From Streptomyces sp. RPA4-2 (GTDB taxonomy: Bacteria; Actinomycetota; Actinomycetes; Streptomycetales; Streptomycetaceae): DNA of 64,000 nucleotides. Positions 18,553 through 40,814 of this stretch are shown piece by piece. The translations under genes and the position numbers were made by a program. The notes beneath the pieces are model-generated. The model was not told the DNA's origin and searched no databases. It saw nothing but the letters and a program-made list of their open reading frames with translations. Location of the stretch: NCBI RefSeq assembly GCF_012273515.2, contig NZ_CP050975.2:8308001-8372000 (forward strand), given 5' to 3'. Numbering within the stretch: position 1 is the first letter of the stretch; each line of letters starts with the position of its first letter.

Positions 18553-19104
18553 ATGGACGTGACGTTCACCAAGGTGTCCGGGCGCCGCTACCGCATGACC
18601 GTCGTGCGGGAACACGGACCGCAACTGGCACCGCGACAGGGTCCGGGCTACGACGACCACCTGCCGCATGACGCCGTGCACTTCCTGGTCGAGGCCGAGG
18701 CGGGCCTGTCCGGCGGCGTCTTCGGCCGGATCGCGGCCGGGCGGAACAACCTCTTCTGGGCGGTCGATCCCGTCGAGCGGAAACGTCAGGCGCGCCGGGA
18801 GGCCAAGCGGCCACCGAGCCCGGCCGAGCGCGCTGACATGGCCCGTTCCGAGACCCTCGCCTCGCTGTGCGATCCGTTGTGGCGACTGCGGTCGGGGCAG
18901 CGCTCGGACCTTCCCGAATGGTTCTCATCGATCGCGGCGGACCTCGACTCCGCAGCGCTCGTCGAGCGCATCCTGGTCCGGCTGGACGCGTTCGCCGCGC
19001 GCTGGTACGCGCTGCCGGTGGGTGACGGCATCACGCTGTCGTGGCCGGGCACCACGGCGGGGGCGCGCCGCGTCGGGAGGACCGGGCATCTGCCGTCAAG
19101 CTGA
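18553..19104 (+). CDS. Conserved hypothetical protein
   Basis: This 183-residue soluble protein has no signal peptide or membrane helix. The N-terminal half has the block RYRMTVVREHGPQLAPRQG and DDHLPHDAVHFLVEAEAGL, then GGVFGRIAAGRNNLFW, and the C-terminal half is helical. Similar proteins occur widely in Streptomyces as unnamed hypotheticals, in my recollection, but no function is known to me. The ATG gives the conserved start. The C-terminal end runs into the truncated ABC gene on the other strand, so the last residues may not be native. Confidence 0.7.
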   Translation: MDVTFTKVSGRRYRMTVVREHGPQLAPRQGPGYDDHLPHDAVHFLVEAEAGLSGGVFGRIAAGRNNLFWAVDPVERKRQARREAKRPPSPAERADMARSETLASLCDPLWRLRSGQRSDLPEWFSSIAADLDSAALVERILVRLDAFAARWYALPVGDGITLSWPGTTAGARRVGRTGHLPSS

Positions 19105-19108
19105 GGCG

Positions 19109-19273
19109 CACGGGCTCGGCGGTGGTCTTGCCGCCGTCGTTCGGATCGAGCAGGGAGAAAACGGTGCCGGCCGGCACCGCCAGGTCGATGCCGTCGAGGA
19201 CCGTCTTGTCCCCGTAGGCCTTGCGCATCCCCTTGGCCGCGATGGCGTGTGAGTGCGATGTCGATGTCGTCAT
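19109..19273 (-). pseudogene. Truncated ABC transporter ATPase (N-terminal fragment)
   Basis: About 50 residues match the start of a DrrA-type ATPase: AIAAKGMRKAYGDKTVLDGI and AVPAGTVFSLL. The Walker A that should read GPNGAGKTT instead reads DPNDGGKTT, and the family sequence stops soon after. The gene is both cut and mutated, so it is dead. Confidence 0.8.
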
Positions 19274-20050
19274 GCCCCAGAGGTTGCGGCAGCCGCATCC
19301 AGCGCGGCTTCACGATGGTTTCAGCGCCCTGGAACCGGGCGGTGGAAGGCAATGCCGCATTGCCTCCCTGCCGTTGCTGCCTCAGCGCCCGGCGAATCGG
19401 CAAACACCGGCGTCGACATTCGGAGCAGTGGTCAGCGGGGCGGCATCAGGCCCGATACGGAGGCCGGCACGCCCGCGGGAAGAGGGAGACCGGGTGGTGT
19501 GGATGGCTCGCGTGACGCCGTGGCGTCGTACGAGCCTGCCGCACCACCCAGCCGCATCCGGGATGCAACCGGCTGGTGAATCGTCCTCCTCCGCGAAGAG
19601 GCCCATCGCAGCAGCGCGATCAAGGCCTTGATACGTAAGACCGGCTGCCACGCTCCTCGATGGAGGGAGGGCAGCCCACCTACTCGGATGGCCTCAGTAA
19701 TTCACTTCAGCGAATCTGACACAATGCTCTTGGCGTGAGGCCACCCATTCGGCGGAGCGCGAGGATGGAAACAGGGACGTCGTACCACCGGGCGGTTCGC
19801 CTTCGCCGACTCTTCCCGGTCGCTGACGTAAAATTTGCTGATGAAACGTTCCGGCACTCGTCCGGTCCTAACCCACCCCGCACTGCCGTGACAGTCGTAG
19901 CCCGGTGGCAGCCCCCTGTCCGTCGCGCACGGCAGCTGACCGCAGGTTGCGGAAGGGGACAGCCGGAGGATGTGGCAGGCCGCCGGTCAGGCCCTTGGGA
20001 GCCTCCCGGGCCGCACGAATGACGTGCCTTCGGTCGTCTCCCTGGGCAGC
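19274..20050. other. Region without a recognisable gene
   Basis: This stretch of nearly 800 bases lies between the ABC remnant and the terminator of the first giant repeat gene. Only short, compositionally unconvincing open frames are present on either strand. No RNA gene, transposon end or long repeat was recognised. Confidence 0.5.
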
Positions 20051-20086
20051 CCTGTATCCCGGCCGGAACACCGGCCGGGATACAGG
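20051..20086 (-). terminator. Strong terminator hairpin of the leftward giant gene
   Basis: CCTGTATCCCGGCCGG and its exact complement form a 16-bp perfect stem around an AACA loop, 18 bases beyond the stop at 20105. Confidence 0.85.
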
Positions 20087-20104
20087 GGCTGTGCCCCGGG
20101 AGGC

Positions 20105-23100
20105 TCACATGTAGGTGAAGTTCACCGGGTTGCTGGGACCTGAGGCCGTGTTGACGACGACGTTCACCGTGCCGGCGCTGTGGGGTGGACTCGTGACGGT
20201 CACGAACGTCCCGAAGGACTGCGACACGATGGTGGCCGGGACGCCGCCGAACGTGACCGAGGTGACGCCGTTGAGGTTGGAACCGACGAGCAGGACGCTC
20301 GTGCCGCCGACGGTCGACCCGGAGCTCGGGATCGCAGCCACGAGATTCGGGGGAAGGCTCGCGGACACGGTCTGGGTCACGGCGGGTGAGGTCGAGCCGT
20401 TGTAGCTACCGCTTCCGCCGTACACGGCGGTCAGCGAGTGACTCCCCACGCTCAGGCTGGAGGTCGTGAACGTGGCCACCCCTCCGGAGAGCGCCCCGGT
20501 GCCCAACAGGGTCGCGCCGTCGAAGAACGACACGGTTCCCGTCGGAGTCCCGCCGCCGGGGGCCACTGCCGCGACGGTGGCCGTCAGAGTCACCGCCTGG
20601 CCGGACCCCGAGGGGTTCGGCGAGGCGGTGAGGGCCGTGCTGGTGTTGGCCTTGTTGACCGTTTGTGTGTCGATGAGGGAGGTGGAGGTGTTGTAGTTGG
20701 CGCTGCCGTTGTAGGTGGCGGTGAGTGGGTGGCTGCCGACGGTGAGGGTGGAGGTGGTGAGGGTGGCGACGCCTCCGGTGAGGGTGCTGGTGCCGATGAG
20801 GGTGGCGCCGTCGAAGAAGGAGACGGTTCCGGTGGGGGTGCCGGTTCCGGGTGCGGTGGCGGTGACGGTGGCCGTGAGGACCTTCGGCTGGCCGAAGACG
20901 GAGGGGTCGGGGGTCGAGGTGAGCGTGGTGCTGGTGTTGGCCTTGTTGACTGTCTGTGTGTCGATGAGGGAGGTGGAAGTGTTGTAGCTGGCGCTGCCGT
21001 TGTAGGTGGCGGTGAGTGCGTGGCTGCCGACGCTGAGGGTGGAGGTGGTCAGCGTGGCGACGCCTCCGGTGAGGGTGCTGGTGCCGATCAGGGTCGCGCC
21101 GTCGAAGAACGAGACCGTCCCGGTGGGGATGCCGGTTCCGGGTGCGGTGGCGGTGACGGTGGCCGTGAGGACCTTCGGCTGGCCGAAGACGGAGGGGTCG
21201 GGGGTCGAGGTGAGCGTGGTGCTGGTACCGGCTTTGTTGACCGTTTGTGTGTCGATGAGGGAGGTGGAGGTGTTGTAGCTGGCGCTGCCCCCGTAGGTGG
21301 CGGTGAGTGGGTGGCTGCCGACGCTGAGGGTGGAGGTGGTCAGCGTGGCGACGCCTCCGGTGAGGGTGCTGGTGCCGATCAGTGTCGCGCCGTCGAAGAA
21401 CGAGACCGTCCCGGTGGGTGTGCCGGTTCCGGGTGCGGTGGCGGTGACGGTGGCCGTGAGGACCTTCGGCTGGCCGAAGACGGACGGGTCGGGGGCCGAG
21501 GTCAGCGTGGTGCTGGTACCGGCTTTGTTGACCGTCTGTGTGTCGATGAGGGATGTGGAGGTGTTGTAGTTGGCGCTGCCCCCGTAGGTGGCGGTGAGTG
21601 CGTGGCTGCCGACGCTGAGGGTGGAGGTGGTGAGGGTGGCGACGCCTCCGGTGAGGGTGGTAGTGCCGATGAGGGTCGCGCCGTCGAAGAACGAGACCGT
21701 TCCGGTGGGGATGCCGGTTCCGGGTGCGGTGGCGGTGACGGTGGCCGTGAGGACCTTCGGCTGACCGAACACGGACGGGTCGGGAGCCGACGTCAGGACG
21801 GTGGCCGTGTTGGCCGGGTTCACCGTCTGCGTATCAACGGGGGATGTGGAGGTGTTGTAGTTGGCGCTGCCGTTGTAGACAGCGGTGAGCGCATGGCTGC
21901 CGACGCCCAACGTGCCGGTGGTCAAGGTGGCGACACCCCCGGACAGCACGGCGGTGCCCAGCAGCGTGGCGCCGTCGAAGAACGACACCGTCCCGTTCGC
22001 CGTGCCCCCGCCCGGAGCGGTGACCGCCACCGTGGCGGTGAGGACCTTGCCTTGGCCGAAGACGGAGGGGTCGGGGGCCGAGGTGAGCGTGGTGCTGGTG
22101 TTGGCCTTGCTGACCGTCTGGGTGTCGATGGGCGAGGTCGATCCGTTGTAGCTGGCGCTGCCCCCGTAGACCGCGGTGAGTGCGTGGCTGCCGACGCTGA
22201 GGGTGGACGTGGTCAGCGTGGCGGCGCCTCCGGTGAGGGTGCCGGTGCCGATGAGGGTGGCGCCGTCGAAGAACGAGACCGTTCCGGTGGGTGTGCCGGT
22301 TCCGGGTGCGGTGGCGGTGACGGTGGCCGTGAGGACCTTCGGTTGGCCGAAGACGGAGGGGTCGGGGGCCGAGGTCAGGGCAGTGCTGGTACCGGCTTTG
22401 TTCACTGTCTGGGTGTCGACGGGGGATGTCGATCCGTTGTAGCTGGCGCTGCCGTTGTAGGTGGCGGTGAGTGGGTGGCTGCCGACGGTGAGGGTGGAGG
22501 TGGTGAGGGTGGCGGTGCCGGCGGTGAGGGTGCTGGTGCCGATGAGGGTGGCGCCGTCGAAGAACGAGACCGTCCCGGTGGGTGTGCCGGTTCCGGGTGC
22601 GGTGGCGGTGACGGTGGCCGTGAGGATCTTCGGTTGGCCGAAGACGGAGGGGTCGGGGGCGGAGGTCAGGGCAGTGCTGGTACCGGCTTTGTTGACCGTC
22701 TGGGTGTCGATGGGCGAGGTCGATCCGTTGTAGCTGGCGCTGCCCCCGTAGACCGCGGTGAGTGCGTGGCTGCCGACGGTGAGGGTGGCGGTGGTCAGCG
22801 TGGCGACGCCTCCGGTGAGGGCGCTGGTGCCGATGAGGGTGGCGCCGTCGAAGAACGAGACCGTCCCGGTGGGGATGCCGGTTCCGGGTACGACCACGGT
22901 GACTGCTGCGGTCAGAGTCTTCGTCTGGCCGAACACCGCCGGATCCGGTACTGAGACCAGGGCGGTGGTGGTGTTGGCCTTGTTGACGCTTTGGGTGTCG
23001 GTGGGGGAGGTGGATCCGTTGTGGTTGGCGCTGCCGTTGTAGGTGGCGGTGAGTGGGTGGCTGCCGACGGTGAGGGTGGTGGTGGTGAGGGTGGCGACGC

Positions 23101-24809
23101 TTAGGCGGTGAGGGTGCTGGTGCCGATGAGGGTGGCGCCGTCGAAGAACGACACGGTCCCGGTGGGAGTACCCGCTCCTGGTGCGACTGCGGTGACCGTG
23201 GCTGTCAGGACCTTGGCCTCACCGAAGGCGGAGGGGTCGGGGGCGGAGGTGAGTGTGGTGGTCGTGTTCGCCGCGCTCACTGTCTGCGTGTCGATGGGCG
23301 AGGTCGATCCGTTGTGGTTGGTGCTGCCGTTGTAGGTGGCGGTGAGTGGATGGCTGCCGACGGTGAGGGTGGAGGTGGTGAGGGTGGCGGTGCTTAGAGC
23401 GGTGAGGGTGCTGGTGCCGATGAGGGTGGCGCCGTCGAAGAACGACACGGTCCCGGTGGGAGTACCCGCTCCTGGTGCGACTGGGGTGACCGTGGCTGTC
23501 AGGACCTTGGCCTCACCGAAGGCGGAGGGTCGGGGGCGGAGGTGAGTGTGGTGGTCGTGTTCGCCGCGTTCACTGTCTGCGTGTCGACGGGGGACGTTGA
23601 TCCGTTGAAGTCTCCATCGCCGCTATAGACAGCGGTCAACGGATGGCTGCCGACGGTGAGGGTGGAGGTGGTGAGGGTGGCGGTGCTTAAGCGGTGAGGG
23701 TGGTGGTGCCGATGGGGGTGGCGCCGTCGAAGAAGGTGACGGTGCCGGTGGGGGTGCTTAAGCGTCGGAGGTGACGGTGGCGGTGAGGGTTTTGGTTTGG
23801 CCGAAGACGGAGGGGTCGGGGGTGGAGGTGAGGGTGGTGGTGGTGGGGAAGGGGATGGTTTCGGTGACGCTGACGGTGTTGTCGCTGTTGTTGGTGACGT
23901 AGGCGTGGGTGCCGTCGGGGGTGAGGGCGATGCCGAAGGGCCCATGCCGACGGGGAGGGTGAAGGTGACGGTGTTGGTGGTGGTGTCGATGATGCTGACG
24001 GTGTTGTCGCCGTTGTTGGTGATGTAGGCGAAGAGTCCGTTGGGGGAGATCGCTACGTTGGTCGGTGCGCTGCCGACGGGGATGGTGGTGGTGACGGTGT
24101 TGGTGGTGGTGTCGATGACGCTGACGGTGTTGTCGCCGTTGTTGGTGACGTAGATGGTCAGGCCGTTGGGGGTGGCTGCCGCTCCGGTCGGTGAGGTGCC
24201 GACGGGGATGGTGGTGGTGACGGTGTTGGTGGTGGTGTCGATGACGGAGACGGTGTTGTCGCTGACGTTGGTGACGTAGACGGTCAGGCCGTTGGGGGTG
24301 ACGGTGACCCCGAATGGTGCGCTGCCGACGGGGATGGTGGTGGTGACGGTGTTGGTGGTGGTGTCGATGACGCTGACGGTGTTGTCGCCGACGTTGGTGA
24401 CGTAGACGGTCAGGCCGTTGGGGGTGGCTGCCGCTCCGGTCGGTGAGGTGCCGACTGGGATGGTGGTGGTGACGGTGTTGGTGGTGGTGTCGATGACGGA
24501 GACGGTGTTGTCGCTGACGTTGGTGACGTAGACGGTCAGGCCGTTGGGGGTGATGGCCACCCCTAACGGTGAGGTGCCGACGGGGATGGTGGTGGTGACG
24601 GTGTTGGTGGTGGTGTTGATGACGGAGACGGTGTTGTCGCCCTCGTTGGTGACGTAGGCGAACAGGCCGTTGGGGGTGATGGCCACCCCGGTCGGGAAGT
24701 TGCCTACGGGCACGGTCGGGTCGAGCAGTGCTGTTACCGGTGTCCGTCGGTATGCGAGCTGTCCGATTCCGAGCAGCTGTCGCCACTTCGACTGAAAACT
24801 CTTGGCCAT
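20105..24809 (-). CDS. Giant YVTN beta-propeller / Ig-like repeat / IPT-TIG protein (frame interrupted)
   Basis: Read as one gene this encodes about 1,560 residues. It starts MAKSFQSKWRQLLGIGQLAY at 24809 after a clear AAGGGGTG site. Seven YVTN-type blades of 42 residues follow (motif YVTNxGDNTVSVIDTTTNT), then 12 Ig-like domains of about 97 residues (group 3 bacterial Ig, motif GTVSFFDGATLIG and VGSHALTAVY), then an IPT/TIG domain ending NPVNFTYM. No signal peptide or anchor is visible. The frame is broken by lost G residues near 23940 and 23527 and by scars at 23756, 23685 and 23099; a scar at 23392 adds three bases in frame. These look like sequencing errors, because the mirror gene is intact at most of these sites. 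Such domains suggest an extracellular adhesive or scaffold role, which is inference. Confidence 0.75.
20370..23830 (-). repeat. Array of 12 Ig-like repeats, 291-bp period
   Basis: Each unit begins near DPSVFGQ and ends near STSPIDTQTV. Successive units are spaced 291 bases apart (97 residues) and are nearly identical at the DNA level, so unequal recombination is likely. Confidence 0.9.
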
Positions 24810-25076
24810 GACGCACCCCTTGATCGTGATGCGGGTTGTCTGGACGGTCGACCTGGGTGCCGGGTATTTCACGGCATCCAGGTGTGTCCGGAAAACCTTC
24901 CAAGGGAGTTGCCCACTCGGCAGGGCCACTGGCTATTTCGGCCAGCACATGCGACGGCCCATCCCCCGGGAAGGATGGGCAACCCACCGAGTCCAATACC
25001 AGAAGTAACGCACCGATCCCCGCAAGCGGACAGACACAGAGACCCATATTCACTCCAAAGGACTAACCCAAGACGC
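23470..25076 (-). repeat. Left arm of a large inverted repeat
   Basis: This sequence is the near-exact reverse complement of 26048-27665. It covers 267 bases upstream of the giant gene start and its propeller-coding half plus the first Ig-like unit. Differences are a few substitutions and small indels. Confidence 0.9.
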
Positions 25077-26047
25077 CGTCCAGCAAGAGTGGGAATCGAC
25101 AAGGCGACGCTCACCGTGGTGAGTGACCTGGGCACCTCCACTTCTGGGTGATCACATGCACGCACGCCATGCTCACAGAAAGCGTGAGCAGTTGAGGCCG
25201 AGCAAGGACGCCCGATTGCGATCTCTGCAGGACGGCAGGCGACGGGCGGCGTCGATTATCTCGGTCGAGTCCCGTCGCTTGTTCACCGTGGCGGTTCGGG
25301 GCCCAGGAGACTTCACGGTGGCATGCGATCTGTTGGCAAGGCAGTCGCCGATCGGCTACTCATCCCGCTGACAGCCGGTAGGTAACTCGGCGTGCCTACT
25401 TGGACTTTGAATACCGCCTGCCCCCCGCCGGCAGAGCCGATCCGCATGCACCTGGACCAGCACGCTCAACTTTCCGGAGGCGACAGTCCGCTGACGGAGT
25501 TGCCGACGCCTCACGTCGGCATCACGTCATTGAGGAGTGAGCTGGCGCTTGCGGCACCCTTCACACCGACGTCTCAGCGCCACTGCTTTGAGGGCGCCTA
25601 CCGTGTGCAGATTCGTCGTGCATGAGTCAATGGATCGCCTTTTCAGCAGAGATGAGCTCAGTCGAGAAGGGCCTGATGGCTCGGTGGGGCACACGCCACC
25701 GTGAGTCGTAATGATCTTTGGCGTGGTCGGAGTGCGGTCGGCCGTCATGTGCTGCGGCGACGACGTCGACTTCAAGTTCAAGCCGGCCCGATACGCCGGG
25801 AGATCCTGCGTCGCAGGAGATCGCCGGCCAGCAGCAAGGGGGAAGCCTCGAGCCGCTCCTCCAAAGACCCATCGACGACGTCCGCCAGTTGGTAGCCGCC
25901 CTCCAACTCTGCATCGAGAAGAGGGGCGACCGCCCCATCGGTCGGCCACTTGGTCGGCGTTAACTGCTCATCGCGACCAGCCGGTGTGTGACAACCCTCA
26001 GGGCGAGAGATCAGCTCCATTGAGTCGGCGTGACGCCTTGGGCAACC
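25077..26047. other. Unique spacer between the inverted repeat arms
   Basis: This 971-base stretch lies between the two promoters of the giant genes. Several open frames of 60-140 codons exist but none matches a family I know. One leftward stretch at about 25780-25960 (TKWPTDGAVAPLLDAELEGG) has protein-like composition but no clear start. No transposase or recombinase is visible. Confidence 0.5.
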
Positions 26048-27665
26048 GCGTCTTGGGTTAGTCCTTTGGAGTGAATATGGGTCTCTGTGTCTGTCCGCTT
26101 GCGGGGATCGGTGCGTTACTTCTGGTATTGGACTCGGTGGGTTGCCCATCCTTCCCGGGGGATGGGCCGTCGCATGTGCTGGCCGAAATAGCCAGTGGCC
26201 CTGCCGAGTGGGCAACTCCCTTGGAAGGTTTTCCGGACACACCTGGATGCCGTGAAAAACCCGGCACCCAGGTCGACCGTCCAGACAACCCGCATCACGA
26301 TCAAGGGGTGCGTCATGGCCAAGAGTTTTCAGTCGAAGTGGCGACAGCTGCTCGGAATCGGACAGCTCGCATACCGACGGACACCGGTAACAGCACTGCT
26401 CGACCCGACCGTGCCCGTAGGCAACTTCCCGACCGGGGTGGCCATCACCCCCAACGGCCTGTTCGCCTACGTCACCAACGAGGGCGACAACACCGTCTCC
26501 GTCATCAACACCACCACCAACACCGTCACCACCACCATCCCCGTCGGCACCTCACCGTTAGGGGTGGCCATCACCCCCAACGGCCTGACCGTCTACGTCA
26601 CCAACGTCAGCGACAACACCGTCTCCGTCATCGACACCACCACCAACACCGTCACCACCACCATCCCCGTCGGCACCTCACCGACCGGAGCGGCAGCCAC
26701 CCCCAACGGCCTGACCGTCTACGTCACCAACGTCGGCGACAACACCGTCAGCGTCATCGACACCACCACCAACACCGTCACCACCACCATCCCCGTCGGC
26801 AACGCACCATTCGGGGTCACCGTCACCCCCAACGGCCTGACCGTCTACGTCACCAACGTCAGCGACAACACCGTCAGCGTCATCGACACCACCACCAACA
26901 CCGTCACCACCACCATCCCCGTCGGCACCTCACCGACCGGAGCGGCAGCCACCCCCAACGGCCTGACCATCTACGTCACCAACAACGGCGACAACACCGT
27001 CAGCATCATCGACACCACCACCAACACCGTCACCACCACCATCCCCGTCGGCAGCGCACCGACCAACGTAGCGATCTCCCCCAACGGACTCTTCGCCTAC
27101 ATCACCAACAACGGCGACAACACCGTCAGCATCATCGACACCACCACCAACACCGTCACCTTCACCCTCCCCGTCGGCATGGGCCCCTTCGGCATCGCCC
27201 TCACCCCCGACGGCACCCACGCCTACGTCACCAACAACAGCGACAACACCGTCAGCGTCACCGAAACCATCCCCTTCCCCACCACCACCACCCTCACCTC
27301 CACCCCCGACCCCTCCGTCTTCGGCCAAACCAAAACCCTCACCGCCACCGTCACCTCCGACGCTTAAGCACCCCCACCGGCACCGTCACCTTCTTCGACG
27401 GCGCCACCCCCATCGGCACCACCACCCTCACCGCTCTAAGCACCGCCACCCTCACCACCACCACCCTCACCGCTCTAAGCAGCCATCCGTTGACCGCTGT
27501 CTATAGCGGCGATGGAGACTTCAACGGCTCGACGTCCCCCGTCGACACGCAGACAGTGAACGCGGCGAACACGACCACCACACTCACCTCCGCCCCCGAC
27601 CCCTCCGCCTTCGGTGAGGCCAAGGTCCTGACAGCCACGGTCACCCCAGTCGCACCAGGAACGGG
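26048..27665 (+). repeat. Right arm of a large inverted repeat
   Basis: This is the mirror of 23470-25076. The outer promoter-side boundary is sharp at 26048. Toward the gene body the two copies diverge gradually after the first Ig-like units rather than ending at one base. Confidence 0.9.
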
Positions 27666-30600
27666 TACTCCCACCGGGACCGTGTCGTTCTTCGACGGCG
27701 CCACCCTCATCGGCACCAGCACCCTCACCGCCGGCACCGCCACCCTCACCACCTCCACCCTCACCGTCGGCAGCCATCCACTCACCGCCACCTACAACGG
27801 CAGCGCCAGCTACAACGGATCGACCTCGCCCATCGACACCCAGACCGTGAGCGCGGCGAACACGACCACCACGCTCACCTCCGCCCCCGACCCCTCCGTG
27901 TTCGGTGAGGCCAAGGTCCTGACAGCCACGGTCACCCCAGTCGCACCAGGAACGGGTACTCCCACCGGGACCGTGTCGTTCTTCGACGGCGCCACCCTCA
28001 TCGGCACCAGCACCCTCACCGCCGGCACCGCCACCCTCACCACCACCACCCTCACCGTCGGCAGCCATCCGTTGACTGCTGTCTATGGAGGGGATGGGGA
28101 CTTCAACGGATCCACGTCGCCCGTCGACACACAGGTCGTGACCGCGGCGGACACGACCACCACGCTCACGTCGGCTCCTGACCCGTCCTCCTTCGGTCAG
28201 GCGAAGATCCTCACCGCCACAGTGTCAGTCGTCCCACCCGGAGTGGGTACTCCGACCGGGACGGTGTCGTTCTTCGACGGCGCGACCCTGATCGGCACCA
28301 GCACCCTCACCGGAGGCGTCGCCACCCTCACCACCTCCACCCTCACCGTCGGCAGCCATCCGTTGACTGCTGTCTATGGCGGCGATGGTGACTTCAACGG
28401 CTCGACGTCCCCTGTTGACACGCAGACGGTGAATGCGGCGGACACGACCACGACGCTCACGTCGGCTCCTGACCCGTCATCCTTCGGTGAGGGCAAGGTG
28501 CTGACGGCGACGGTCACCGCTGTGGCGCCGGGAGTGGGTTCTCCGAGCGGGACGGTGTCGTTCTTCGATGGCGCGACGCTGATCGGGACCGGCACTCTGG
28601 CCGGTGGTGTTGCGACGCTGACCACGTCCACGCTGAGCGTCGGCAGCCACGCTCTCACCGCCGTCTATGGCGGGGATGGTGACTTCAATGGTTCCACGTC
28701 GCCCGTGGATACGCAGACCGTGACCGCAGCGGACACGACCACCACCCTCACCTCCGCCCCTGACCCGTCATCCTTCGGTGAGGGCAAGGTCCTGACAGCG
28801 ACGGTCACCGCAGTCGCACCAGGAGCGGGTACTCCGACCGGGACGGTGTCGTTCTTCGACGGCGCGGCTCTGATCGGCACCGGCACCCTCGCCGCCGGCG
28901 TCGCCACCCTCACCACCTCCACTCTCAGCGTCGGCAGCCATCCGTTGACTGCTGTCTATGGCGGCGATGGTGACTTCAACGGCTCGACGTCCCCTGTTGA
29001 CACGCAGACGGTGAATGCGGCGGACACGACCACGACGCTCACGTCGGCTCCTGACCCGTCCTCCTTCGGTCAGGCGAAGATCCTCACCGCCACAGTGTCA
29101 GTCGTCCCACCCGGAGTGGGTTCTCCCACCGGGACCGTGTCGTTCTTCGACGGCGCGGCTCTGATCGGGACCGGCACTCTGGCCGGTGGTGTGGCGACGC
29201 TGACCACGTCCACGCTGAGCGTCGGCAGCCACACTCTCACCGCCGTCTATGGCGGGAGTGGTGACTTCAATGGTTCGACGTCGCCTGTTGATACGCAGAC
29301 GGTGAGTGCGGCGGACACGACCACGACGCTCACGTCGGCTCCTGATCCGTCCGTGTTCGGTGAGGGCAAGGTGCTGACGGCCACGGTGGCTGCTGTGGCG
29401 CCGGGAGCGGGTGTTCCGAGCGGGACGGTGTCGTTCTTCGATGGCGCGACGTTGCTGGGCACCGGGACTCTCGCCGGTGGTGTGGCGACGCTGACCACGT
29501 CCACGTTCAGTGTCGGCAGTCATCCGTTGACTGCCGTGTATGGCGGGAGTGGTGACTTCAGCGGTTCGACGTCTCCGGTGGACACGCAGACGGTGAATGC
29601 GGCTGATACGACGACGTTCCTCACGTCGGCTCCTGATCCGTCCGTGTTCGGTGAGGGCAAGGTGCTGACGGCCACGGTGGCTGCTGTGGCGCCGGGAGCG
29701 GGTGTTCCGAGCGGGACGGTGTCGTTCTTCGATGGCGCGACGCTGATCGGGACCGGCACTCTGGCCGGTGGTGTTGCGACGCTGGCCACGTCCACGCTGA
29801 GCGTCGGCAGCCACGCTCTCACCGCTGTCTATGGCGGGAGTGGTGACTTCAATGGTTCCACGTCGCCCGTCGATGCACAGACGGTGAGTGCGGCGGACAC
29901 GACCACGACGCTCACGTCGGCTCCTGATCCGTCCGTGTTCGGCGAGGCCAAGGTTCTGACCGCTACGGTCACGGTCGTCGCCCCTGGAGCAGGTACGCCG
30001 ACCGGGACGGTGTCGTTCTTCGACGGGGCCACCCTCCTCGGCACCGGCACCCTCGCCGGCGGCGTGGCAACCCTCACCACCTCCTCTCTGAGCGTCGGAA
30101 GCCATGCGTTGACCGCCGTCTACGGTGGAAGCCCCGACTTCAACGTCTCGACGTCTCCGGTGGATTCGCAGAGCGTGAACGCGGCCGACACCACCACTGC
30201 ACTCACCTCGGTGCCCGACCCGTCAGCATTCGGCGAAGCCAAGGTGCTGACTGCGACCGTCACGCCCGTTGCTCCAGGAGGTGGTACTCCGACCGGGTCG
30301 GTCTCCTTCCTCGACGGTGCCACGTTGGTCGGGACCGCCACTCTTGTCGGCGGAGTCGCGACTCTCACCACCTCGTTCCTCGGCGTCGGCAGCCACCCGC
30401 TCACCGCGGTCTATGGGGGGAGTGTCGGCTTCAATGGTTCGACGTCTCCGGTGGACACGCAGACGGTCACTGCGGCTGATACGACGACGGTCCTCACGTC
30501 GGCTCCGGATCCGTCGGTGTTCGGTCAGGGGAAGGTGTTGACGGCTACGGTGGCTGTCGTCGCTCCGGGGGCGGGTGTTCCGAGTGGGACGGTGTCGTTC

Positions 30601-33093
30601 TTCGATGGTGCGACGCTGCTGGGTACGGGCACTCTTTCCGGGGGTGCGGCGACGTTCGCCATCTCGACGCTGAGTGTTGGGAGTCATGCGCTCACTGCGG
30701 TCTATGGGGGGAGTGTCGGCTTCAATGGTTCGACGTCTCCGGTGGATCCGCAGACGGTCACTGCGGCTGACAGCAGCACGGTCCTCACGTCGGCGCCGGA
30801 TCCGTCGGTGTTCGGTCAGGGGAAGGTGTTGACGGCCACGGTGGCTGTTGTGTCGCCGGGAGCGGGTGTTCCGAGTGGGACGGTGTCGTTCTTCGATGGT
30901 GCGACGCTGCTGGGTACGGGCACTCTCTCCGGGGGTGTGGCGACGTTCACCACCGCCACGCTGAGTGTTGGGAGTCATGCGCTCACCGCGGTCTATGGGG
31001 GGAGTGTCAACTTCAATGGTTCGACGTCTCCGGTGGACACGCAGACGGTGAACGTGGCTGCCACGACGACGGTCCTCACGTCGGCGCCGGATCCGTCGGT
31101 GTTCGGTCAGGGGAAGGTGTTGACGGCCACGGTCACTGTCGTCGCTCCTGGGACGGGTGTTCCGAGTGGGACGGTGTCGTTCTTCGATGGTGCGACGCTG
31201 CTGGGTACGGGCACTCTCTCCGGGGGTGTGGCGACGTTCACCACCGCCACGCTGAACGCCGGGAGCCATGGGCTCACCGCCGTTTACGGGGGGAGTGGCA
31301 CCCACAACGGCTCCACGTCGCCGGTGGATGTGCAGTCGGTCAACAAGGCCAACACCACGACGAGCGTGTCCTCTTCGCCGAATCCGTCGGTGTTCGGGCA
31401 GCCGGTGGTCTTGACGGCAATCGTCGCGGCGGTCGCTCCGGGGGGTGGCACGCCGACCGGAACGGTGACGTTCTTCATCGGCGGTATCCCCCAGACGCCG
31501 GCGACCCTCACCGGGGGAGTGGCCACATTCACCACCACCACTCTCGGCGTCGGCACCCGCACGGTCAGGGCCACCTACAACGGGAGCAGCAACTACAACA
31601 CCTCCACCTCCAGCACCATCAACCAGACGGTGACCAAAGCCAACACGTCCACGGCATTGGCGTCGGCTCCGGACCCGTCGGTGTTCGGCCAGGCGAAGGT
31701 GCTGACTGCCACCGTCACGCCCGTAGCTCCAGGAGGTGGTACTCCGACCGGGGCCGTGTCCTTCTTCGAAGGCGCCACGCTGCTCGGGACCGCCACTCTT
31801 GTCGGCGGAATCGCCGCCCTGACCACGTCAGCCTTCACCGTCGGCAGTCACTCCCTGACCGCTGTATACGGCGGAAGCGGCAATCACAACGCGTCCACCT
31901 CCCCGGTGGATCCGCAGACGGTCACTGCGGCTGACAGCAGCACGGTCCTCACGTCGGCGCCGGATCCGTCGGTGTTCGGTCAGGGGAAGGTGTTGACGGC
32001 CACGGTGGCTGTTGTGTCGCCGGGAGCGGGTGTTCCGAGTGGGACGGTGTCGTTCTTCGACGGTGCGACGCTGCTGGGTACGGGCGCTCTCTCCGGGGGT
32101 GTGGCGACGTTCGCCATCTCCACGCTGAGTGTTGGGAGTCATGCGCTCACCGCGGTCTATGGGGGGAGTGTCAACTTCAATGGTTCGACGTCTCCGGTGG
32201 ACACGCAGACGGTGAACGTGGCTGCCACGACGACGGTCCTCACGTCGGCGCCGGATCCGTCGGTGTTCGGTCAGGGGAAGGTGTTGACGGCCACGGTGGC
32301 TGTCGTCGCTCCTGGGACGGGTGTTCCGAGTGGGACGGTGTCGTTCTTCGATGGTGCGACGCTGCTGGGTACGGGCACTCTTTCCGGGGGTGTGGCGACG
32401 TTCACCACCGCCACGCTGAACGCCGGGAGTCATGCGCTCACTGCGGTTTACGGGGGGAGTGGCACCCATAACGGCTCCACGTCGCCGGTGGATGTGCAGA
32501 CGGTCAACAAGGCCAACACCACGACGAGCGTGTCCTCTTCGCCGAATCCGTCGGTGTTCGGGCAGCCGGTGGTCTTGACGGCAATCGTCGCGGCGGTCGC
32601 TCCGGGGGGTGGCACGCCGACCGGAACGGTGACGTTCTTCATCGGCGGTATCCCCCAGACGCCGGCGACCCTCACCGGGGGAGTGGCCACATTCACCACC
32701 TCGACACAGAGCGTCGGAGCACACTCCGTCAGGGCCACCTACAACGGGAGCAGCAACTACAACACCTCGACCTCCAGCACCATCAGCCAGACGGTGACCA
32801 AGGCCAACACCAGCACGGCTCTGTCCTCTGCGCCGAACCCGTCGCTCTCCGGCCAGCCGGTGACCTTGACTGCGACCGTCACCCCAGTTGCCCCCGGCGG
32901 AGGCACACCCACCGGAGCCGTCTCGTTCTTCGACGGGGCCACCTTGCTCGGCACCGGCGGGCTCTCCGCGGGAGTCGCCACGTTCACCACGTCCACGCTG
33001 AGTGTCGGCAGCCATTCCCTGACTGCCGTGTACAGCGGAAGCGGCAGTCACAACGCCAGCACCTCGCCGGTGGTCACTCAAACGGTGAGCTGA
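26315..33093 (+). CDS. Giant YVTN beta-propeller / Ig-like repeat protein (frame interrupted)
   Basis: Read as one gene this encodes about 2,258 residues. The N-terminus MAKSFQSKWRQLLGIGQLAY and the seven 42-residue YVTN blades match the leftward gene almost exactly. Twenty Ig-like domains follow, each with the FGxxKVLTATV and GTVSFFDGATL motifs; units 15 and 19 have the variant TFFIGGIPQTP. There is no IPT domain, no signal peptide and no anchor; it ends SPVVTQTVS. The ATG has AAGGGGTG upstream. A two-base scar (GCTTAAGC at 27362) stops the frame at 27367; restoring GCCGGC there joins it to the long downstream frame, which is open to 33093. Two more scars at 27433 and 27472 are in frame. Alternative: a propeller protein and a separate Ig-like protein. 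Confidence 0.77.
27290..33090 (+). repeat. Array of 20 Ig-like repeats
   Basis: Units of about 285-297 bases code for group 3 bacterial Ig-like domains. Positions 30760 and 31924 start blocks that are almost identical over some 870 bases, offset by 1,164 bases (four units), showing a higher-order duplication. Confidence 0.88.
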
Positions 33094-33102
33094 CGGCCTG
33101 AA

Positions 33103-33146
33103 CGTCCGTGCCCCGGCCGGCTTTGGGCGGTGCCGGGACACGGACG
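33103..33146 (+). terminator. Terminator hairpin of the rightward giant gene
   Basis: CGTCCGTGCCCCGGC pairs with GCCGGGACACGGACG with one mismatch, starting ten bases after the stop. Confidence 0.75.
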
Positions 33147-33308
33147 GTGCGCGTGCATGACGTCGGTTTCCAAGACCTGGGCACGGTCTCGGAAACCGGC
33201 GTCGTCGTGCGCGGACCGATGGCCCGTGTGGCAGCTCTGATGAGTTGCAGCAGACATGTGCGGTCGGCCGCTGTCCGTGCCATCAGGGCGACGGTACCGA
33301 GCTGCCCG

Positions 33309-33342
33309 TCAGCCCCGTCAGCCCCGTCAGCCCCGTCGGCCT
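33309..33342. repeat. Short CAGCCCCGT tandem repeat
   Basis: About three and a half copies of a 9-bp unit lie in the intergenic region between two terminator hairpins. Confidence 0.7.
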
Positions 33343-33356
33343 CCGCCACGAGTACC

Positions 33357-33392
33357 CCGCATGCCACCCGGTCGCGAACGGGTGGCATGCGG
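33357..33392 (-). terminator. Terminator hairpin of the small secreted protein gene
   Basis: CCGCATGCCACCC and GGGTGGCATGCGG form a perfect 13-bp stem with a ten-base loop, 48 bases beyond the stop at 33441. Confidence 0.8.
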
Positions 33393-33440
33393 CTTGGCGT
33401 AGTCCTGCTCCTGAGGGCTCATCGGGTGGTGGGAACCGAC

Positions 33441-33809
33441 TCAGCGGACGACGTGGCTGCAGACGGCGTAGACCGTCAGGCCGCCTGTGCCGTTCGAGAA
33501 GGCGACGCCCACCCAACCCCGGCCGTCAGAGGTGGGGTACGTCCCCTGGAGGACACCGTTGGGCGTGTACGCCCCGCCGCCGACCACTCGCGTGAAGTTC
33601 GGGCAGTGGACCGTCTGGGGGACACCGTCAGGGGCGGTGGAGAAGTGCCGAGTAACGATTCGGCTGTCGTAGGCGGCCTCGACGCCGGCACGCCCGCTGC
33701 TGACAGTGGGGTTGGTAGGGGGCGTGCCCTGAGCATGGGCGCTGAGGCCGGTGCCCAGGAACGCCGCCGCGGTCATTGCACCGACGGCGAGAATACGCGT
33801 GCTCCGCAT
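33441..33809 (-). CDS. Small secreted protein, unknown function
   Basis: This is 122 residues with a Sec signal peptide: basic MRSTR, a hydrophobic core ILAVGAMTAAAFLGTG, and a likely cleavage after SAHA. The mature part has two cysteines (VHCPNF and AVCSHVV), so one disulfide is possible, and a Gly-rich beta pattern with GRGWVGVAFSNG. The ATG is preceded by GGAGGAAG. A terminator follows. I do not recognise the family. Confidence 0.75.
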   Translation of the reverse strand: MRSTRILAVGAMTAAAFLGTGLSAHAQGTPPTNPTVSSGRAGVEAAYDSRIVTRHFSTAPDGVPQTVHCPNFTRVVGGGAYTPNGVLQGTYPTSDGRGWVGVAFSNGTGGLTVYAVCSHVVR

Positions 33810-34185
33810 GTCTTCCTCCACTTTTTGCCGCAAAGAGGTTCATCCGAACCATCCGTGAGATTAGCGGCATGTGCATATGCATGCCGCCTATGCATGGGCC
33901 AGTTGGAGCAGTGGGCCAGGCCGACCCCGTCCGGGTCGAGCTGCCCGAGGGCGCCGCCTGCCGGCAGCGTGGGACGGGCTTCTTCGCCCGGGCGGCGTAC
34001 CCCGTGCTTTCACGCGGACGCGCTCGAAGCCGTCCCCGACCTCGATGCCGTGCAGGGTGTTCACCGACATGTGCGAGGCGTATCCGGCGGGCGACCGCGC
34101 GAGCGGCGTGGCGGAGCGGCTCAGCACCACCCTCGGGGCCACCACCCGATGCGATGGAACGTCGATTCGAATGCGGACGACCCAG
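33810..34185. other. Region without a confident gene, upstream of an ATPase-domain remnant
   Basis: Both strands have overlapping open frames here but none can be followed through a known domain. The rightward strand may be the decayed upstream part of the HATPase gene whose end lies at 34401. Confidence 0.4.
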
Positions 34186-34401
34186 ACGGACCCTGATCTC
34201 GTCCACCACAGCACAGACGTTGGCGATCTGGAACAGGGCGCCTTCGTCCTTCCTGTGCGCCACGCACGCACAGTCGACGAAGGTGGACACGGCCTGTTCA
34301 TCGTCGCTCAACTCGCCCAAAGATGGGGCACCCGCTACACCGCGGGAGGCGAGACCGTCTGGAGCGAACAGGCCCTACCTCACTCCGGCCTCCCCTCATG
34401 A
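34186..34401 (+). pseudogene. Remnant of an RsbW/SpoIIE-type ATP-binding domain
   Basis: The last 70 residues of this frame match the C-terminal end of HATPase_c_2 domains: DEGGHGLFIVAQLAQRWGTR followed by YTAGGETVWSEQAL. In Streptomyces this end is common in SpoIIE-type phosphatase/anti-sigma regulators. No intact upstream domain (N-box, PP2C or PAS) is found, so this is a 5'-truncated or frameshifted relic. Confidence 0.65.
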
Positions 34402-34636
34402 CGTTCCCGAGGCGGCCGCTGCCCGTCCTTGGCCAGGCTGGACGGCTCCCGATCGGGCAACAGGTCCACTGGTCGGAGGGTCTGGACATCGACCAGAAAT
34501 CAGACAACGGGGATACGACTGCTGGCGGGTCACGGCCAGGATGGCGATGTCGTCCTGATGGCCGCCCCCTGTAAGCGCCTTCGCTGTCAGCTGCGACACG
34601 GGTCGGCTTCCCGTCGTTCCGTCCCACCGGATGCTT

Positions 34637-35122
34637 TCAGCGGGACGGACGCACTGCTGTCGACGAGAGGTTGGGGCAGCAACCGTTGAGGATTGAGGAC
34701 AGGGCGCTCTTCTCGGCGGAGTCGACCGAGAGTCCGTAGTAGTACGTCACCTGGACCCAGGCATGGGCGTAGGTGCAGCGGGCGGGCCACCAGGTGGCAG
34801 GGTCCTGGTCGCCCCCGGACTGGTTGACGTTGTCGGTGACCGCGAGAAGGTGGAGGCGAGTGAGGTCGTTGGCGAGCGACTGTCGCTTGGAGGTGGCCCA
34901 GTTGTCGGCTCCTGAATCCCACGCCTCGGCAAGGGGGATGAGGTGGTCGATGTCGATGTCGGATGAGGCGGACCAGGTGGCTCCGTCGTAGGGGGAGTGC
35001 CGGCTGCCGCTCGTGGCGGCACAGGAGGAGTTGGTGACGACGTTGGTGCCGTCGCGCTTGAGGATTCTGCGGCTTCCGCCGGACGGGCCCTTCGAAAAGA
35101 CCCTCGCCTGGCGTGCGATCAA
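34637..35122 (-). CDS. HNH endonuclease family protein, N-terminally truncated
   Basis: This is about 161 residues. The core RDGTNVVTNSSCAATSGS, then DIDIDHLIPLAEAWDSGA and LAVTDNVNQSGGDQDPATWW, is the DUF1524/HNH nuclease found in secreted actinobacterial proteins. The DHLIPL histidine is the catalytic base and the C-terminal YYYGLSVDSAEKSAL is conserved. Family members begin with a signal peptide and about 60 more residues, which are missing here; the frame starts at a poor TTG. The gene therefore looks cut at its 5' end and may be inactive or unsecreted. Confidence 0.75.
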   Translation of the reverse strand: MIARQARVFSKGPSGGSRRILKRDGTNVVTNSSCAATSGSRHSPYDGATWSASSDIDIDHLIPLAEAWDSGADNWATSKRQSLANDLTRLHLLAVTDNVNQSGGDQDPATWWPARCTYAHAWVQVTYYYGLSVDSAEKSALSSILNGCCPNLSSTAVRPSR

Positions 35123-35147
35123 GCGCCAGGCAGTCGCGTACGGCGAA

Positions 35148-35843
35148 TCAGTCGTTGTCGTTGTAAAAGGTGATGCCGTTCCAGTCTGTGACGCACGAGC
35201 GGCTCAGGAAGATCCAGCCGATCGCGCTGTCGCGGACGACGATCGCGGGGTTGGACCCGTTCGTCGTGAAGCGATACATCACGGTGGACCCTGGATTGCC
35301 TGCCACGTCGCGCAGTGAACCGTCGCTGTATGCACTGGTCGTGTAGTAGTTGTAGTACGCCGTGCAGGCTGGGTTGACCGTGATTGCGGTGCCGTCCGTT
35401 GCCGCGTGCGCGGCTGCGTTGAAGTTGTATCCGATCGTTCGGCGGTGCGAGATGTTGTCCTTGGTCGCGTCGCTGCACGACTCCGCGACGGACGCGGTCG
35501 GGCTGGAGCCGAGGGCGCCGGGCGGGATCCAGCCACAGATGTTGTTGCCGCCCAAGCTGCGCCCGTAGTGGTAGTTGCTGGCGGCGGTCTGGTGGACGTC
35601 GAAGGACGAGCTGGCCATGGCGGTGCCGACCCAGTAGCCGCAGACCTTGTTCTGGATCCAGGTGCCGGCCGGGATGGTGCCGGAGTTGTTGCACCCGGTC
35701 GGCTTAGGCGAGTTCGGCTGGACGGTGTACCTGTTGACGTTCGCCTGGGAGGAGGTGGGGAGCAGGCCGACGAGCGCGGCCGCCGCGGCGAGGGTGATGG
35801 CGGCGCGTGCGCGGCGTCGGAGGGTCGTGCCGATCGTGGTCAT
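35148..35843 (-). CDS. Secreted protein, unknown function
   Basis: This is 231 residues with a Sec signal peptide (MTTIGTTLRRRARAAITLAA and a hydrophobic core, cleavage probably after SSQA). The mature protein has six cysteines (GCNNSG, KVCGYW, NICGW, ESCSDA, PACTAY, SRSCVTD), suggesting three disulfides. It is rich in Tyr, Asn and Ser, as in extracellular beta proteins. The start is fixed by GAAGGAG nine bases upstream. The family is not recognised. It lies with two other secreted-protein genes on the same strand. Confidence 0.75.
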   Translation of the reverse strand: MTTIGTTLRRRARAAITLAAAAALVGLLPTSSQANVNRYTVQPNSPKPTGCNNSGTIPAGTWIQNKVCGYWVGTAMASSSFDVHQTAASNYHYGRSLGGNNICGWIPPGALGSSPTASVAESCSDATKDNISHRRTIGYNFNAAAHAATDGTAITVNPACTAYYNYYTTSAYSDGSLRDVAGNPGSTVMYRFTTNGSNPAIVVRDSAIGWIFLSRSCVTDWNGITFYNDND

Positions 35844-36404
35844 CACTGCAACTCCTTCGTGCCGGAGGGATGGTGCGGTGGGAAGCCGCAGCCGCAGGTG
35901 GTGACAGCGGGCCCCATGGGCGCGGCTGACCGAGACGGACGGTGCGGCTGCCGCCAAGCGCGCGGCCAAGCCCTCGGAGAACGGGGTTGACCATGTGAGT
36001 TTGTCTCCTCTGCTGGATTCCGATAACTGCCGACTGCTGTACGGAGGCATCGACATATCTGACCGCGGGGGCCTGACTGTGCAGGGGCTGACCTGCCCCG
36101 CACGCGTGGTCGGCCGCTGCACTCGCGGTGCCGGTCAAGCGACCAACGCCTGTCAGGTGTGCGATCCGGCGGCGCCGTATGCGCCGTAAATGCGGAGGTC
36201 ACCACTCTTGCGGCGGGATGTGGACCTTGGCTGGGAGTGCTCCAGGGCGATCGTGGCGGCGACGATCGCCCCTACGGCAAGGACCCGTTCTGAGGCGCTG
36301 AACGGCCATCAACTCCTCGACGACGGGAAGAAGGTTCGCCGCCCGCAGGAGGTGTCCGCGCAGGTGAACTGGCGGACCCGCAGGCGTGGGTTCTGAGCCC
36401 CGGC
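35844..36404. other. Region without a recognisable gene
   Basis: This stretch of about 560 bases lies between two leftward secreted-protein genes. It presumably holds the promoter of the 35148-35843 gene. No protein family, RNA gene or transposon end was recognised. Confidence 0.5.
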
Positions 36405-36430
36405 GTGCCCCGTCCGCCGGACGGGGGCAC
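36405..36430 (-). terminator. Terminator hairpin of the M15-like gene
   Basis: GTGCCCCGTCC pairs with GGACGGGGGCAC with one bulged base, 15 bases beyond the stop at 36445. Confidence 0.65.
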
Positions 36431-36444
36431 TTCTGTCTGCCGGC

Positions 36445-36969
36445 TCAGCAGCCGCCGCAGTTGTAGTAGAGGACGTCCCAGTGGTTGCCCTCGTCGGCGT
36501 AGATGTTTCCGGAGCCGGACTGGTACTGGGGAGCGCCGTCACCACGGAGCCCTATGTAGCTGAAGGTGGTGTGGATGTAGTTGGTGAGACACGTGGACTT
36601 GCCGTAGTCGAGCTTGTAGCCGTTCCAGTGTGAGTACGTACCGCTGGCGTGCCCGGTCTCGGTGCCGCCGGTGATGTTGAGCGCGCAGCCGGTGGCGCTC
36701 TTCAGGGTCTGGGCCCCCTGGGCGGTGGCGAGGTTGAGCTGATCGAAGGACGTGCAGGTGGCGTTGTTCCGGTTCGAGCAGCCGCCGGAGGACGACCAGG
36801 TGATACCGGACGAGCTGAACCGGGACGTGGCCTGTGCGTGCGTGAGCTTGGTGACGGCGTGAGCCTCGGTGGCGCCGCTGCCGAAGGCGCCGACGCCGGG
36901 GACGAACAGGGCGCCGAGGACGAGGGCGAGCACGGACAGGGCCGAGCGCAGTTTCGGGCGATGCAACAT
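36445..36969 (-). CDS. Secreted M15-like zinc peptidase
   Basis: This is 174 residues with a signal peptide (MLHRPKLRSALSVLALVLGA, cleavage probably after EAHA). The mature part contains SHWNGYKLD, matching the HxxGxxxD zinc motif of M15 DD-peptidases, and EGNHWDVLYY near the end, matching the ExxH motif. Six cysteines are present, with a closing CGGC. The M15 family cuts cell-wall peptides, so a role in murein turnover or lysis of other cells is plausible, but the match is by motif only. GGAGGAA eight bases before the ATG fixes the start. Confidence 0.68.
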   Translation of the reverse strand: MLHRPKLRSALSVLALVLGALFVPGVGAFGSGATEAHAVTKLTHAQATSRFSSSGITWSSSGGCSNRNNATCTSFDQLNLATAQGAQTLKSATGCALNITGGTETGHASGTYSHWNGYKLDYGKSTCLTNYIHTTFSYIGLRGDGAPQYQSGSGNIYADEGNHWDVLYYNCGGC

Positions 36970-37377
36970 AGGGGGATTCCTCCTGCTCATGACAACTTTG
37001 GGGACGGGGCTGCCGCATGGTGGAGCAGGGAGATAGTGCCCGAGTGCTACGCGCGTCACAAGAGCCAGCCCGAACGAGTTGGCCATTGAGGTTGAACTTG
37101 TTTGATCCGCCGTCAGAGGGTCACAGTTCGAGCGACGCCGACAAAGCTGCTGAGCACCACCGATGGCGCCGAGGGGCGGACGGAGGTCCGTCGGGAGCAG
37201 GGGCGTTGAACCGGAAGTCTTCAGGGGCGACGTTGGTGTCCGCGTTGGCGGTCAGGTTCACATGAACTGCCAGTTCGTTGCCGGGCAGCTGGTCGCGGCT
37301 CAGTTCGGTAGCCATGATCAGGCTGGCGGTGGAGTCGCGGACCGCGACCTGGGGCCCCGCACCATGCGGTAGGCGCC
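36970..37377. other. Region without a recognisable gene
   Basis: This holds the promoter side of the M15-like gene and then sequence with only short, unconvincing open frames up to the oxidoreductase remnant. Confidence 0.5.
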
Positions 37378-37569
37378 ATGGACGACGCCTCGTACGCGCC
37401 CGGATCCGCGGTGCAACTCGCCCTGAAGGACATCGAACTGGCCGCGGCGCCGCCACCCCCAGCCCTCTGCTCCAGGCCGTACGAGACCGTCTCGAAGCGA
37501 CCGTCGCAGCCGGCCACGACAACGACGACCTCGCCGCCGTCGACTACTTGAGGAAGTCGTCGTCGTAGT
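37378..37569 (+). pseudogene. C-terminal remnant of an NAD(P)-dependent oxidoreductase
   Basis: The frame starting MDDASYAPGSAVQLALKDIE continues, after a frameshift near 37450, as LLQAVRDRLEATVAAGHDND and DLAAVDYLRKS. Together these resemble the dimerisation end of 6-phosphogluconate/3-hydroxyisobutyrate dehydrogenase-like enzymes. The catalytic and NAD-binding parts are absent. Confidence 0.6.
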
Positions 37570-38397: not shown

Positions 38398-38655
38398 AGC
38401 GAGTTCACGAAGGCGGCGAACGCTGCGGTCCTCGACCAGCTGGCCTTCGACGACGAACGCGACTTCGCCGATACGAGCCGCGGACGGATCGCCCCGCTCC
38501 CGGACGGCGGAGTGATCCGCGACGGACGCGGGGAGATCGTCTTCGACAGCACGGTCTTCGACTATGTCGACGGACCTGCCCTGGACACGGTCAATCCGAG
38601 CCTGTGGCGCCAGTCCCGCATCATCAAGCACGCCGGTCTCCTCCAGGTACTGGCG
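38398..38655 (+). pseudogene. N-terminal fragment of an alkyl sulfatase (BDS1/SdsA type)
   Basis: The frame reads TKAANAAVLDQLAFDDERDF, IAPLPDGGVIRDGRGEIVFD and DTVNPSLWRQSRIIKHAGL, the conserved start of metallo-beta-lactamase-fold alkyl sulfatases. The zinc-binding core and the rest of the enzyme (about 550 residues) are missing. Confidence 0.7.
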
Positions 38656-38779
38656 CAGAGCACTTGTTCCGCAGGTGTCGTATTCCTGGGCAGGAGGGTC
38701 CGTCAGCTCCCTCGGTACGTGGCGCTGGGCCGAGCGAATTCGCTGGTCGGCATGGGGGGCAATACGGGATGCTGCACGG

Positions 38780-39364
38780 GTGATCGAGCGAGAAGCTGCC
38801 GTTCGCGCTGTCGAAGGACAGTTGGAGCGCGACTATCAGCAGTGGCGGGCTGTGAGTGTGGACGCGATGCGGATGGCTGTGGTCCGTGTCGAGGAGCACG
38901 AACTGGTGTGGATCGTCTCCTGGCAGTCCGAGGAGTTCGTACGCACTCGGAACTCGAAGTACATGCTGATTGGTAATGGGCCGTACCTGGTCGACCGCGT
39001 GGACGGGGGACTGCATCAGATCGGCGTCGTCTCCGCGAAAACAGGGGAGTGGGAGATCGACTACCGGGTCCGGATACGTGGGCTGCCGGTGCGGACCGCA
39101 GTAGACGACCTGCACGATGCGCTCTGTGGGGTCGCCGCTACGCACGGACGCATGCACGCTGTGCGGACACTGCGCCAGAGGTTGCCGATGCTCTCGCCGG
39201 CGGAGGCCATCGAGTACGTGAGCGCGCTGCTGGACGGTGATGCGCCCGCGCGCCTCGTGGCCGTTGCCACCAACGAACTCGTGGAGTCTTTCAACCCGGT
39301 ACTTGCAGTGGAGACCATCCCGAGCGGGGCTGCGATCCGAGCCCATCAGAGACCCGAGGGATGA
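38780..39364 (+). CDS. Imm35/YrhB-like immunity domain protein
   Basis: This is about 194 residues from a GTG. The segment MAVVRVEEHELVWIVSWQSE, then MLIGNGPYLVDRVDGGLHQ, matches the Imm35 (YrhB-like) fold of small immunity proteins in toxin systems. The C-terminal part (RMHAVRTLRQRLPMLSPAEA) may be an extra helical domain. The frame is open back to 38564, but that part overlaps the alkyl sulfatase fragment. No toxin gene is next to it. Its end overlaps the convergent DUF3885 gene by 19 bases. Confidence 0.65.
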   Translation: MIEREAAVRAVEGQLERDYQQWRAVSVDAMRMAVVRVEEHELVWIVSWQSEEFVRTRNSKYMLIGNGPYLVDRVDGGLHQIGVVSAKTGEWEIDYRVRIRGLPVRTAVDDLHDALCGVAATHGRMHAVRTLRQRLPMLSPAEAIEYVSALLDGDAPARLVAVATNELVESFNPVLAVETIPSGAAIRAHQRPEG

Positions 39365-40764: not shown

Positions 40765-40814
40765 CCGCCGCATCTCGTGGTGGTCTCTCTGGACCATGGC
40801 CGCCGCCGGGACTG

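Follow-up and report, generated by a model that had tools for sequence, protein, structure and literature searches.

Two very long genes stand head to head within a large inverted repeat at 8.308-8.372 Mb of the 9.86-Mb single-contig genome of Streptomyces sp. RPA4-2 (contig NZ_CP050975.2), each combining a beta-propeller with an array of immunoglobulin-like (Ig-like) units. Positions given here are those of the window, by which we mean the whole 64,000-nucleotide (nt) stretch of DNA that was analysed. The gene on the reverse strand (the short gene) starts with ATG at 24809, and that on the forward strand (the long gene) with ATG at 26315. An earlier note on this DNA, made from the letters alone, had predicted a seven-blade propeller, and seven YVTN repeats were indeed counted in the forward copy, where TIGR02276 matched seven stretches with 297.7 bits (cut-off 27.85) and the best PDB match was 1L0Q, a surface layer protein (E 5.5e-101). 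The array has 12 units in the short gene (10 recognised by pattern and two implied by doubled spacing), plus an IPT/TIG domain, and 20 units in the long gene, the same counts as had been given before. Domain searches agree with these assignments, as the open reading frame (ORF) of the short gene (P0003) matched Big_3_5 (PF16640) with 614.8 bits against a gathering score of 35.5, and IPT/TIG (PF01833) with 35.8 bits against 20.9 at residues 867-942. The products would be surface or extracellular fibres, with a propeller borne on stalks of two lengths.

The arms of the repeat (Table 1) are 98.06% identical over 2006 alignment columns; the 39 columns that differ comprise 28 mismatches and 11 gap columns, and only eight of them fall in the leader plus propeller. 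Counted from the inner edges (25079 and 26045) in bins of 100 columns, each of the first 20 bins has 92-100 matching columns, beyond which similarity drops to 71/100 and then 54/84 columns. The arms are ~2.0 kb each, where the earlier note had set a minimum of 1.6 kb; its unique spacer is present, at a size of 965 bp instead of 971 bp, and the 267 bp of common upstream DNA that it reported agree with the ~270 bp lying between the inner arm edges and the two ATGs. Judged from the sequence, chance is far too weak to explain a repeat of such length and identity. Among the 40 of 211 candidates that were scored, the next long matches to an arm in the genome are the Ig units of both arrays (66-82%), and short or weak pieces alone match it in the rest of the genome.

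Table 1. Coordinates of the gene pair, its inverted repeat and other features (window positions unless a locus is named).
Feature	Position	Strand	Basis
Left arm (leader, propeller, first Ig-like units of short gene)	23080..25079	-	pairwise comparison
Right arm (leader, propeller, first Ig-like units of long gene)	26045..28045	+	pairwise comparison
Spacer	25080..26044	none	
Short-gene propeller, from ATG to first frame change	23942..24809	-	
Short gene, open part: Ig-like units and C-terminal IPT/TIG, 943 amino acids (aa) from internal GTG	20105..22936	-	
Long-gene seven-blade YVTN propeller frame, ending with TAA within GCTTAAGC	26315..27367	+	
Long-gene Ig-like array, two units of GGIPQ type; frame differs from propeller	27370..33093	+	
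GCTTAAGC word at frame change of forward copy	27362..27369	+	
Conserved leader element, short gene	24959..25015	-	sequence model
Conserved leader element, long gene	26109..26165	+	sequence model
HATPase_c_2 gene behind element, locus L226	1788-2276		
HATPase_c_2 gene behind element, locus L227	1883-2305		
HATPase_c_2 gene behind element, locus L225	26-538	-	
DDE_3 ORF	40644-41306		domain scan
IS110 transposase	42007-43338		domain scan

A collection of named species scanned with the forward propeller gave at least 37 loci (80 pattern stretches, close relatives only), and the search for further genomes with the divergent pair, which had been proposed as a check, was successful. The same head-to-head pair is intact in Streptomyces sp. 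Ag109_O5-1 (L058), where the stop-to-stop frames measure 1591 residues for the gene that ends in IPT/TIG and 3085 for the other, and where the inverted arms are 95% identical for 755 nt and 79% identical onward. Both genes are also present in S. bungoensis, on different contigs, the short-gene contig starting inside the leader. When the tail of the short gene of the window (167 residues) was used as a query on eight chosen genomes, a match with IPT over residues 3-167 at 79% or more was found in 3/8, namely in the window itself (100%), Ag109_O5-1 (81%) and S. bungoensis (79%), and a weaker one in S. rhizoryzae (49% over residues 2-148). Long-type tails without IPT occur in the same three genomes and, less alike, in others (8 genomes). 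The two types also differ in small motifs: the IPT motif IPSSG is present in 3/3 short genes and in none of the long genes read, whereas both complete long genes have two GGIPQ units each and the three short genes have none. Comparing the window with Ag109_O5-1, the short array has 12 and 12 units and the long array 20 vs 28; the short gene of S. bungoensis has at least 12, its sequence including a run of N. No flank synteny with Ag109_O5-1 (~11 kb on each side) and no spacer similarity were found by blastn, the best spacer match being 19 bp long (E 0.019).

The propeller itself is widespread, as 113/392 genomes of the genus have a match at E <= 1e-40; among the propeller matches listed for the 392 genomes, all but the window's own are partial. 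Known YVTN beta-propeller proteins (TIGR02276; PDB 1L0Q) share the seven YVTN repeats with the genes of the window and Ag109_O5-1, which differ from them in adding 12-28 Big_3_5 units, in carrying IPT/TIG in one gene and in their head-to-head pairing. A protein search returned an 'Ig-like domain repeat protein' in S. scopuliridis (62%) and S. sasae (98%) and a 'beta strand repeat-containing protein' in S. kaempferi (64%); these predicted proteins, known from the protein listing alone, are alike in propeller and Big_3_5.

Several further candidates were not counted as pairs. In genome G003 a long gene lies at the end of contig C13 and a further array at the start of contig C18, the two not being joined and the C18 tail lacking the IPT motif; S. 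rhizoryzae (G394) was likewise set aside. The head-to-head propeller pair of G094 has arms only 70-78% alike and lacks the leader element described below. In that genome (L095, L096) two contigs carry, at matching coordinates, an 18-kb stretch without a single base difference, and this pair with its non-homogenised arms lies in it.

The similarity between copies depends on where along the genes it is measured. Propeller DNA of the left and right copies of the window is identical at 984/989 positions (99.5%), as against 73-76% between the window and Ag109_O5-1, where the short and long copies agree at 873/1030 positions (84.8%) and their similarity by block runs.97,.95,.89,.73,.83,.78 and.77 from start to end. 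A tree of the leader plus 480 nt (8 rows) joins the two copies of the window with support 100/100, and three groupings by gene, tested on 7 rows with G075 left out, were rejected (p-AU 1e-127, 8e-4 and 2e-67). Since the 5' arms are homogenised within the window while the tails stay distinct as in Ag109_O5-1, this pattern indicates that the arms were converted over ~2.0 kb in the lineage of the window. In Ag109_O5-1 they were probably converted over ~0.75 kb; here it is the gradient that speaks for conversion, because its tree group has no resolved inner order.

Taken together, we hypothesize, with a probability of roughly 0.65, that the locus is an old head-to-head pair of a short gene with IPT/TIG and a long gene, whose 5' ends have been kept alike by conversion. 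Homologous gene conversion would overwrite the leader and propeller of one gene with those of the other, so that the upstream control region and the propeller would stay common to both, and arrays and tails would diverge. Conversion at the inverted repeat would in this way keep uniform that end of giant repeat proteins which comprises regulatory DNA and propeller, and let their stalks grow different. Gene pairs borne on palindromes undergo concerted evolution by gene conversion, and the pair in the window resembles them in that its arms are closer to each other than to those of the related species, but differs in being homogenised at the 5' parts only, not in arrays or tails. Of the recombination between arms that the earlier note had envisaged, the exchange is supported by homogenised arms with distinct tails, whereas the inversion switch built on it is not supported.

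Several observations weigh against this hypothesis. The pair stands on one contig in just one other genome. The Ag109_O5-1 copies and the short copy of S. bungoensis form one supported group without resolved order inside, and in its first 450 nt the S. bungoensis copy (.89-.97) comes as near to the short copy of Ag109_O5-1 as the long copy of Ag109_O5-1 does. Moreover, the last Ig units are not sorted by gene, the last unit of the window's short gene being nearest to that of the long gene of Ag109_O5-1 (87%), and separate duplications with later exchange of tails are possible. As for the predicted fibres, no export signal or anchor was seen in the N-terminus MAKSFQSKWRQLLGIG on inspection by eye only.

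Alternatively, the 5' half of one gene might have been duplicated recently, in inverted orientation, in the lineage of the window, with no long-standing pair behind it. The 99.5% likeness of the arms in the propeller is as expected for a recent copy; however, the pair recurs in Ag109_O5-1 with both its tails, and both genes are found in S. bungoensis, so we consider a recent duplication unlikely.

The next question is whether the genes are whole. The earlier note described one continuous gene per copy, but as assembled the propeller and array lie in different frames in both. The forward ORF at 26071-33093 (2340 aa) reads the propeller out of frame; the true propeller frame meets a stop at 27365-27367, inside the word GCTTAAGC, after which the array is read in another frame. 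The reverse copy has several frame changes between 23941 and ~23050, and the same word at 23756-23763 and 23685-23692. Although both copies are thus frame-broken, a decaying pseudogene pair is quite unlikely, since the forward break coincides with a word that looks like an assembly error and the array frames are open over 5.7 kb (forward) and 2.8 kb (reverse). GCTTAAGC shows no genome-wide enrichment (95 occurrences vs 113 for the backward control). With a frame window of 150, the codon phase changes at 24/27 GCTTAAGC sites outside the window, 15 of them by two, as against 2/53 sites of the control word GCCGGC in the same stretches (Fisher p 5e-15); under a strict filter at this setting the counts are 4/5 and 0/29. 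The genes of relatives are uninterrupted, as the stop-to-stop frames of Ag109_O5-1 attest. Because the forward break falls at a word that coincides with codon-phase changes elsewhere in the genome, most frame breaks here are likely assembly errors.

Some points tell against such errors. Further indels of the reverse copy sit away from GCTTAAGC, and the 27 sites are drawn from the first-listed of the 95; every one of them is located at less than 2.6 Mb, away from the window. A frame window of 210 gives 20/27 against 3/42 control sites, and control sites within the window itself change phase at 27/89 (filtered: 7/64 and 1/41), probably because genes begin and end there. Among the papers listed by literature searches, none was on an assembly error of this kind. 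For users of this genome, GCTTAAGC is to be flagged as a word that accompanies breaks of reading frame in this assembly. Another copy of it lies in the window at 43735, and there are sites in loci L041-L044 and L127-L146.

The locus had also been proposed to vary its surface display, through phase or antigenic variation, with inversion of the spacer or a change in the array modifying what is shown. In invertible phase-variation loci, inverted repeats flank a spacer, and the pair in the window is like them in having long inverted arms close together around one. In such loci the invertible segment carries the switched start or control region; here, by contrast, the near-identical arms contain both leaders and start codons, and because of this an inversion of the spacer would be nearly silent: a crossover between the arms inverts the spacer alone and swaps two almost identical 5' parts, leaving both genes practically the same 5' half. 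The 16 flank ORFs scanned include no site-specific recombinase; the only genes of recombination type among them are two transposase ORFs at distances of 7.5 and 9 kb. A search of 24700-26400 for promoters of the sigma-70-like type gave none, and no terminator turned up in the spacer region. The suggested change in repeat number holds between species for the long array (20 vs 28 units), but not for the short array, with 12 units in both complete cases. Therefore, a variable locus is improbable, and a surface-variation switch by spacer inversion is not supported by the layout of the arms. An artefact of assembly, with one arm collapsed or duplicated, is scarcely credible: suspect words and indels do occur in just this region of the assembly, but the arms differ at 39 alignment columns, the arrays are unlike in length and tail, and the independent assembly of another species has the same layout.

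In addition to the propeller, the arms share a conserved leader element of ~60 bp, with a core AACCGGTGGGCnGCCCATCC followed by about five bases and then cGGGG. It was recognised by aligning the leaders of both window copies, the Ag109_O5-1 pair, S. bungoensis, Streptantibioticus ferralitis, S. orinoci and G075, and a half-motif of it recurs near other propeller genes. With a sequence-only model of 12 cores (E <= 0.01 per genome), the element was found in 73/392 genomes of the genus, own included, with up to about four false genomes expected; the two matches in the window's genome are the two arms. A sample of the class at E <= 0.001 gave 2/296 genomes (own and one more of the genus) and 1/114 genera. 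Streptantibioticus, by name another genus, carries it too, and the element is therefore nearly, not strictly, confined to the genus.

The next gene was read behind 98 distinct places of the element (126 matches with duplicates; loci L153-L242), with short motifs used to set the classes and a simple score to choose start codons. IPT/TIG genes follow in 32/98, six of these being two elements before one gene, and YVTN propellers in 16/98; the other classes are secreted-type CSEtALV (9), small secreted-type (6), MLTP type (6), RWVNG type (4) and MPFIQQ type (3), and 22/98 have no class. Of the 16 propeller cases, 12 belong to the element model or are twins of a member, and one IPT case also belongs to it; classes other than propeller and IPT are independent of the model. 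Among seven class members run against Pfam, TIG was found in the IPT and MLTP members and no domain of any kind in the other five; a 'beta-helix' label for one secreted-type class was dropped, as two members had no Pfam match. In three genomes (G003, G217 and G327) the element stands 270-475 nt before a HATPase_c_2 gene, which we take to be anti-sigma-like.

The 150 places listed include 22 neighbouring element pairs no more than 3 kb apart; 12 of these, with that of the window counted, are divergent, 9 are tandem and 1 is convergent (divergent vs convergent, p 0.003). About half of the divergent pairs have no gene recognised behind the second element. In G075 there are two divergent elements with no propeller gene recognised behind the second, so that it was not accepted as a pair, and L054 has a second, divergent element at 8778-8833 (-) with no recognisable gene behind.

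By eye a hairpin and a pseudoknot looked possible in the element, but RNAalifold on 126 rows with duplicates gave just three weak pairs, two with a double change (-1.74 kcal/mol). Rfam had no match at gathering score in 19000-37500, and the leaders of L058 and L059 gave none even at E <= 1. The element also occurs twice in tandem before single genes (G026, G229 and G260), which would suit a DNA site. We tentatively suggest, at somewhat less than even odds, that the element is a control site (DNA or leader RNA) of an as yet undescribed regulon that comprises genes for propeller, IPT/TIG and secreted-type proteins together with an anti-sigma-like ATPase, and that its two copies in the pair, like the propeller that follows, are kept identical by conversion. 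The leader would put the pair under control common to other surface-type genes, and with the element shared by several such families, common regulation is directly testable. Among the papers listed by full-text literature searches, no title or abstract opening was on the pair or element, which does not exclude printed work.

Beyond the gene pair, an ORF at 38564-39364, near the IS110 and DDE_3 ORFs, has an Imm35 immunity-protein domain, and an ORF at 34637-35122 (-) matches the GmrSD C-terminal domain.

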